Shown here: positions 18,032 to 52,768 of the stretch, in pieces | Layout of the letters: each line of letters starts with the position of its first letter | How positions within the stretch are numbered: the first letter of the stretch is position 1 | Assembly: GCA_030430075.1 (NCBI GenBank) | Contig: JAUIGN010000030.1 | Location: 1-64,000, forward strand | Reading direction: 5' to 3' | Length of the DNA: 64,000 nt | From: a bacterium | GTDB lineage: Bacteria; Planctomycetota; Planctomycetia; Pirellulales; Pirellulaceae | Position numbers and translations under genes: made by a program | The notes under the pieces: model-generated | What the model was told of the DNA's origin: nothing | Databases searched by the model: none | What the model saw: only the letters and a program-made list of their open reading frames with translations

Positions 18032-18252
18032 TGGGAGACCTTCGGTCGGCGGTTTCGGCGGGGTCGGAGACCCGCGCCGAGCGGTTGGTTGGAGACCCGC
18101 GCCGAGCAGATGGTCGGAGAGCCGCGCCGAGCGGTTGGTCGGAGGTCCGCGCCGAGCAGATGGGTCGGAGGTCCGCGCCGAGCGGTTGGTTGGAGACCCG
18201 CGCCGAGCAGATGGTCGGAGAGCCGTGTCGAGCAACTCGTTGGAGAGCCGCC
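18032..18252. repeat. 25-bp GC-rich tandem array (site A of a dispersed family)
   Basis: Seven full units of 25-26 bp start at 18066, 18091, 18116, 18141, 18167, 18192 and 18217, and a partial unit starts at 18242. Consensus core is GGAGACCCGCGCCGAGC followed by alternating GGTTGGTT and AGATGGTC tails, giving a roughly 50-bp higher-order period. The leading 53 bp (18032-18084) are identical, in inverted orientation, to 36771-36823. There are no spacers, so it is not a CRISPR array. Confidence 0.9.
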
Positions 18253-28215: not shown

Positions 28216-28677
28216 GGGTCGAGCGAGAGGCGGACGTCGCCATCGTTGTCTTTCGCTGTGTCCCAGGGGCATTGTAGCGCCGCGCTCGCGGCGCCGGCGG
28301 CGACTCTCGTCGAGGGAACGGTCGGAGGACCATTTCCTGCCACAGCATAGGCGCCTTGACGGCTCGATTTGCGATATCATGGAGGCGTGGTGCGGCGGCC
28401 GGATACCAGGCTGCCCGGCGTCATGCGCCGCATGACCGACGAAGTGGTCGGCTGTTGGCTGCCGCACCTCAACATTCGCCGCCGTTGCCAAACGGTGGTT
28501 CCGGGGTAACTCCGTTTGGCGGCGGTGTTCGCCTTGGCGAAATGGTTGATGATACATTCCCACGGGTTGTTCGCTGGATCGCTGTTCCAATGGTCGCGTG
28601 TTACGTCGTGGCTGACCGGACGCTCCACCGGCCCGAAACCTGTGCAAGCTGATCTCAAATCGCAGGACGAGCTTATC
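28216..28677. other. Intergenic region with two stem-loops upstream of SHD1 gene
   Basis: No gene is supported in these 462 bp. A tight inverted repeat, GCGCCGCG (28277-28284) and CGCGGCGC (28287-28294), lies about 60 bp after the LEPR-XLL stop and may be part of a terminator. A larger stem-loop, GCCAAACGG (28487-28495) with CCGTTTGGC (28512-28520), is extended outward by about five GC pairs with a small bulge. It has a 16-base loop and ends 151 bp before the SHD1 start, so it would be in that gene's leader or upstream region. Confidence 0.45.
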
Positions 28678-36555: not shown

Positions 36556-37105
36556 GAGCCACCGACCTAACCAATCGCGGCGGCGATCAGACGCGCTTGC
36601 TTGCCACGGGTGTCTGCCGTTTTCACTCGGCGCGAATTCCCGATCACCGCCCGGCGTGAGTTCCCATTCGTCGCTCGGCGCAGGTTCCCTTTCTCCCACT
36701 CGGCGCAGGTTCCCTTTCTCCCACTCGGCGCAGGTTCCCTTCCTCCCGCTCGGCGCAGGTTCCCTTCCTCCCGCTCGGCGCGGGTCTCCGACCCCGCCGA
36801 AACCGCCGACCGAAGGTCTCCCACTTCCCCCGACCGAACGTCTCCCACTTCCCCCAACCGAAGGCTTCCCATTTCCCCCGACCAAAGGTTCCCCAATTCC
36901 ATCGTGTTCGTCGTTCGCTGTACAACGGCGCAGGTACAACAGCGTCGTTCGTGCTCGGCCACGATCCTCGACGAACCATTCGGATAGAACGTCCACCAAC
37001 GCGACAGGCACGCGGGAACCGATTGATGGTGCGTTCCAGCCTGATGTCAGACCGCATTACGTCATGCACGGCATGACCTGTGGGCGGATGGAACGCGGCG
37101 CCGGC
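36556..37105. other. Convergent intergenic region dominated by repeats
   Basis: These 550 bp separate the plus-strand asparaginase gene from the minus-strand SDR gene. About half is the site-B repeat array (36626-36900). No gene or clear terminator hairpin was identified in the rest. Confidence 0.6.
36626..36900. repeat. Composite tandem array (site B of the dispersed family)
   Basis: Degenerate units at 36626-36673 are followed by four 25-bp units (36674-36773, core CTCGGCGCAGGTTCCC). Next comes a 53-bp segment identical, in inverted orientation, to 18032-18084 (here 36771-36823). Four 24-bp units follow (36807-36900, core CGACCGAAGGTCTCCC). So two different unit types flank one shared element. 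No spacers and no coding gene. Confidence 0.9.
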
Positions 37106-52366: not shown

Positions 52367-52768
52367 TCGGGCGGCGCCACCTTCCTTACAGCGCACCTTC
52401 CCGGCAGACCGGCACAGGTCGCCGGCGGGGCGGCAGCAGGCAACGAGCGATGGGCATTCCGTAGGTCATGCTGTGCATGACGTCGTGCGGATCGACAACG
52501 GGACAAACGTCCCATCGCGAACTGCCGTCCACCTCTTCGCCCTCCTCTCCCACGCGCTCGGCGCGGGTCTCCGACCCCGCCGCGGTTGCCCTACGTTGCG
52601 TTGCATTGCCCCACCGAGGGGATTACCTTGATGCGCAAGCGGATGTTGTGTGTCCTCTGGTGCATTGCTCTGGTGCATTGCTCTGGCGCATTGGCCGGCA
52701 GGCGGCGGCATCGTCGGCAAGCAGGAATTGCCAAGCGGGTCGAGTGGTTCGAGAACGAGAGGTGCAAG
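52367..52768. other. Intergenic region with repeat site C and a 13-bp triplication
   Basis: These 402 bp precede the giant heme protein. They contain the 28-bp repeat copy (52555-52582) and three copies of CTCTGGTGCATTG (52655-52667, 52668-52680, and 52681-52693 with one change). The giant protein's frame is open across the 13-bp repeats (an ATG lies at 52631). A 13-bp period would shift frame with each copy change, which argues that this stretch is not normally translated. Confidence 0.6.
52555..52582. repeat. 28-bp solitary copy of the dispersed element (site C)
   Basis: CGCTCGGCGCGGGTCTCCGA plus eight further bases; all 28 are identical to 36772-36799 and lie inside the 53-bp segment shared by sites A and B. 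No tandem units adjoin it. Confidence 0.9.

Follow-up and report, generated by a model that had tools for sequence, protein, structure and literature searches.

A 64,000-nucleotide stretch of a Pirellulaceae genome (hereafter the window) carries the same short sequence at two places in opposite orientation, and the question is what this sequence is and how it came to stand at both. The 53 bp at 18032-18084 (site A) are the exact reverse complement of 36771-36823 (site B), as the first-pass annotation had reported, and the match ends at base 53, with 0 further matching bases on either side. The 25-bp array that this annotation described at 18066-18252, with tails of two kinds in alternation, was likewise confirmed. 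TRF placed the array of site A at 18062-18251, with a period of 50 (score 280) outscoring one of 25 (score 225) because two kinds of tail alternate, which read GGTTGGTT/GGTTGGTC and AGATGGTC/AGATGGGTC. The conserved element at site A is the first ~50 bp only (18033-18082). The neighboring genes are GSDH/cytochrome c and DUF1501 at site A and asparaginase and SDR at site B, and the window also holds a partial third copy. The features are as follows.

18032-18084, plus strand: conserved half-element of site A (REP-like core), GGGAGACCTTCGGTCGG-CGGTTTCGGCGG-GGTCGGAGACCCGCGCCGAGC; exact 53-bp match to site B, profile match over 18033-18082 (E 2.1e-16)
18037-18047, plus strand: small hairpin of site A, GACC-TTC-GGTC; four pairs in all 24 diverse copies with a varying loop, and fold prediction
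18055-18080, plus strand: large bulged hairpin of site A, TCGGCGGGGTC-GGA-GACCC(G)CGCCGA; three pairs with compensatory changes
18066-18252, plus strand: tandem array of site A, seven units of 17 bp (18066-18233) whose 8-9-bp tails alternate, the last unit degenerate; TRF and tail reading
36625-36770, minus strand: right-type array of site B, degenerate units (GGGAACCTGCGCCGAGC, ~25-bp period); TRF and tail reading
36771-36823, minus strand: conserved half-element of site B, identical to that of site A; exact match and profile match
36806-36900, minus strand: left-type array of site B, small-hairpin segment in four degenerate copies, period 24 bp; TRF
52556-52582, minus strand: partial third copy, large hairpin only; 18-mer sharing and profile match (E 8e-5)

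A dispersed family with hundreds of copies

The window belongs to contig C33 of the source genome (G000; 9.24 Mb in 101 contigs). A genome-wide search found 417 exact copies of the 17-bp unit GGAGACCCGCGCCGAGC and 165 exact copies of the 23-bp core, the latter over many contigs, against 0 for the reversed-pattern control of each, which bears out the dispersed repeat family that had been proposed from the window. Profiles detected 63-72 half-elements in ~1.24 Mb of sampled DNA from this genome, and extrapolation from that sample gives a genome-wide total of roughly 450-500. All copies share ~50 bp, GGAGACC-TTC-GGTC-GG-CGGTTTCGGCGGGGTC-GGA-GACCCGCGCCGAGC, and the flanks beyond are private to each.

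The 53-bp identity is the family consensus common to hundreds of copies and not a link between two sites; given so many copies with a conserved core, the identity of sites A and B is therefore no evidence of mutual exchange. The first-pass annotation had offered recent copying, gene conversion or strong constraint to account for it. Copying and constraint stand, while a special connection between the two sites falls with the 165 core copies. No description of this family was found in the open-access literature.

Two conserved hairpins

Conserved secondary structure, which the first reading of the window had raised as something to look for, was found, as two hairpins with support from covariation, when 24 diverse copies taken from several genomes of Planctomycetes were aligned. 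In the small hairpin, GACC-N3/4-GGTC, the stem is invariant and only the loop varies. The large hairpin, CGGCG-GGGTC-NGGA-GACCC-(G)-CGCCG, shows compensatory changes in three pairs of its stem, with a covariation score of 0.122 compared to a shuffled mean of 0.032, and 97.9% of its stem cells are paired, where slid controls reach at most 47%. One version of the large stem has GTGC/GCAC ends in place of CGGCG/CGCCG. Fold predictions agree with the two-hairpin model. The canonical GTAG/GTGG hairpin foot is absent from the element, whose feet are mostly GYT and not GTRG, and no Rfam family matched in the window at gathering thresholds.

Inverted pairs and outward arrays

In the congener G048, which is about 75% identical to the source genome in the compared region, the element consists of two inverted half-elements with the inner small hairpins facing each other across a loop of mostly 26-27 bp (13 pairs), often with arrays on the outer side. 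Inverted pairs are also the common form in other genomes (42 among 122 halves), whereas the source genome has only 5 among 72 halves, most of its copies being a single half with an array extending outward. Arrays reach three units or more at 67% of the source-genome copies, as against 33% of those in G048 and 1% of those in other genomes, so that array growth looks specific to the genus of the window within our sample.

The tails measure 4-9 bp at most loci and are near-identical within a locus but different between loci; many terminate in (G)GTC, a sequence belonging to the core. As had been noted at the outset, the arrays have no spacers in the CRISPR sense, and a CRISPR array was rejected as a candidate, there being no unique regular spacers but short tails repeated within each locus. 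Degeneracy is greater in array units remote from the core, both when the last unit is compared with the second (p 1e-5) and when the penultimate is (2.23 versus 1.29 mismatches, p 0.004); the same polarity measured by within-array rank correlation, with the last units left out, reached only p 0.075. We infer that the arrays grow where the core is intact, through tandem duplications that also take in private bases of the flank. Polar arrays of this kind offer a simple model for a hairpin that seeds tandem repeats.

Intergenic copies, empty sites and in-frame copies

Using genes called by a home-made gene caller, we found 63 of 65 sampled copies to be intergenic, the remaining two lying only in ORFs under 200 nt, which agrees with the earlier reading of the sites as non-coding in the source genome. 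Convergent gaps hold 26% of the copies but 13% of the intergenic bases. No orientation bias relative to neighboring genes was observed (20 versus 21), and a split by replication strand (28 versus 26) gave no skew contrast that could be used.

The G048 intervals orthologous to sites A and B are shorter (398 versus 770 bp and 113 versus ~568 bp). Neither contains the element, nor do the two contigs that carry them show any match, so the insertions at sites A and B either postdate the split or were lost in G048. The intergenic DNA is too diverged for insertion boundaries or target duplications to be read. Across the order, the element is patchy, present in at least 11 of 247 genomes when 23 candidates per genome are scored; most of the compared genomes are draft assemblies.

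In other Planctomycetes, the element was also found in frame inside long ORFs, about ten of them, between recognizable domains. These copies lie, among other places, in a PSCyt2/PSD1 protein (L149), after kinase domains (L208, L145, and L061), in a response regulator/Hpt protein (L226), and after a peptidase M56 (L166). At least two frames are used in the coding copies (ARRGSPDPA and ALGAGLLTPP). The insertion in L149, a DUF1553 protein, adds ~38 residues at a linker, where 12 homologues without it are shorter.

These distributions bear on whether the copies are host-serving sites, such as protein-binding sites, terminators or mRNA-end structures, kept by selection and not mobile. Such a role would suit the strongly constrained core and the intergenic position enriched in convergent gaps, but the patchy occurrence across the order, the emptiness of both window sites in the congener, the lack of gene-orientation bias, the insertions inside unrelated proteins and the window without any Rfam match all argue against it, making it very improbable.

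A RAYT gene flanked by the element

Clustering of 461 proteins encoded near copies revealed one recurrent transposase-like gene and no other recurrent transposase. Its product in the source genome is a REP-associated tyrosine transposase (RAYT) of 181 aa (G000:C8:200476-201021), and the gene is flanked by two complete inverted pairs. The protein passes the NCBIfam REP_Tyr_transpos equivalog NF047646 (92.4 bits versus a cut-off of 80), matches the TnpA-REP structure PDB 4er8 (E 6.7e-6), and carries both an HuH motif (MPTHLH) and a Y---NP motif (YLHENP), with H59, H61, Y139, N143, and P144 invariant among three genera. Its subgroup has no Pfam match even at E 1, and PADLOC gave no match either. 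Searches with Pfam Y1_Tnp (PF01797) found other Y1 genes, none of them near the element; the view drawn from these searches, that the element lacks a linked RAYT, was wrong, as the cognate subgroup escapes Pfam. Since Pfam alone misses a RAYT subgroup, other repeats that it leaves as orphans may not be orphans. The first-pass statement that no transposase is adjacent thus holds locally, for the neighbors of sites A and B, but not genome-wide, where complete elements flank the RAYT.

Among the 247 genomes of the order, the element flanks 6/6 loci of the close RAYT subgroup, one of these six genes being broken, compared to 0/24 more distant RAYT loci (Fisher, 1.7e-6). Further genomes gave 2/2 subgroup loci versus 0/4 distant ones, for a total of 8/8 subgroup loci (in 8 genomes) versus 0/28. 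Two of these eight loci have weak flanking matches (L363, E 0.03-0.16; L364, E 0.003-0.005). At L363 (G575:C53), the subgroup RAYT lies amid many hairpin copies with a different stem (GACGCGGTC-TCCC-GACCGCGTC), suggesting that stem sequence and RAYT diverge together.

By genome, the element is present in at least 4 of the 6 that have the RAYT subgroup versus at least 7 of the 241 that do not (p 3e-5, both counts being lower bounds). Several element-rich genomes have no subgroup RAYT, namely G048 (84% complete), G561 (92% complete, at least 18 copies), G009, G103, and G039, so copies are either retained or mobilized in its absence. Draft assemblies, relic copies or the action of other RAYTs are alternative explanations for these cases.

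The same data weigh on the idea of a MITE belonging to an ordinary insertion sequence (DDE or other) and moved by a transposase unrelated to the RAYT. We hold this to be very improbable: the long inverted-pair architecture and the in-frame insertions would be compatible with it as well, but the RAYT is the sole recurrent transposase among the clustered proteins, and every subgroup locus has flanking elements. Ectopic gene conversion or an assembly artefact joining sites A and B only would fit the exactness of the 53-bp identity but is refuted by the exact core copies spread over many contigs, every one with flanks and tails of its own.

A probable variant of the REP/REPIN-RAYT systems

We therefore read the two sites, with a probability of roughly 85%, as non-autonomous elements of the REP/REPIN type that belong to a RAYT system of Planctomycetes, with the RAYT as the presumed mobilizer. 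By its HuH and Y---NP tyrosine motifs, the RAYT would recognize the hairpins on single-stranded DNA and would move or copy the elements into new sites. After insertion, tandem duplication from the intact core may copy the 3' half of the large hairpin with a few private flank bases, which would yield the 23-26-bp arrays, whose distal and older units would decay. The left half would usually be lost in the source genome, and a coding copy would be tolerated, in frame, within flexible linkers.

REP/BIME/REPIN systems with a RAYT (TnpA-REP) include the E. coli group 2 and Pseudomonas group 3 REPtrons (PMC8266576, PMC6006769, PMC3116915). The planctomycete family resembles them in its high-copy, short, intergenic palindromes with a bulged hairpin and inverted pairs, and in its low-copy cognate RAYT gene, which has repeats on its flanks and the HuH and Y---NP motifs. 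It differs by an additional, conserved small hairpin (GACC-N3-GGTC) in each half-element, by the outward tandem arrays, by the in-frame ORF copies in relatives and by a RAYT subgroup outside Pfam. The foot tetranucleotide of REPs is most often GTAG (PMC8266576), although atypical REPs have been reported (PMC6006769). As the planctomycete element lacks a GT[AG]G foot, we class it as a non-canonical variant of the REP/REPIN-RAYT systems.

Class 3 Y1 transposases of Planctomycetes, characterized by CnGA-foot structures and Y----Q (PMC6006769), share with this system the phylum, a Y1 gene flanked by repeats and a possibly high copy number. There are two differences: this RAYT carries the class 2 motif Y---NP, and the foot of the element is not CnGA. 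The source genome also has TIR-bearing RAYT-like genes (PF01797 matches, TIR GGGGTCAGGTCTTGACA), which are Y1 too but are not flanked by the element. Several of these, ~1.1 kb long, ~95% identical and bounded by the inverted repeats (L069-L073; G000:C29, C83, C58), apparently form a separate TIR-type Y1 transposon.

Rickettsia palindromic elements, as summarized in PMC10969869 (citing Ogata 2000, 2002), are palindromes of ~130-150 bp that lie in frame in unrelated proteins. Going by that summary, the planctomycete element is like them in its in-frame presence in unrelated protein-coding genes, and unlike them in that the family is mostly intergenic and RAYT-linked; the likeness meant is one of behavior. 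We know of no established mobilizer for the Rickettsia elements. A broader reading, which we put forward tentatively and at a little under even odds, is that one RAYT-mobilized palindrome family gives rise both to intergenic REPINs and to recurrent in-frame linker peptides across Planctomycetes, with intact cores seeding polar arrays. If true, this would be a mechanistic bridge from REPINs to the Rickettsia palindromic elements. With a presumed enzyme, its substrate, empty and filled sites, and coding insertions all nameable for a single repeat family, the creation of protein-coding palindromes by RAYTs becomes a testable idea.

Other repeats in the window and its genome

Another palindrome family, GTCATGCnnnGCATGAC, is represented 237 times in the genome. 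Its copies often follow a GTAG (GTAGGTCATGC...), as in canonical REPs of the GTAG type. In the window, the family occurs at 52461-52481, 37061-37077 and 28420-28436, the last of which may be due to chance. At G000:C4:370046-370424, the element and this GTAG-type palindrome are joined in a composite unit of ~107 bp that is repeated in tandem. Finally, positions 1-171 of the window hold a 12-bp tandem array of 14 copies that is probably coding, reading on the minus strand as a QQPG repeat in a frame that stays open past the window edge.
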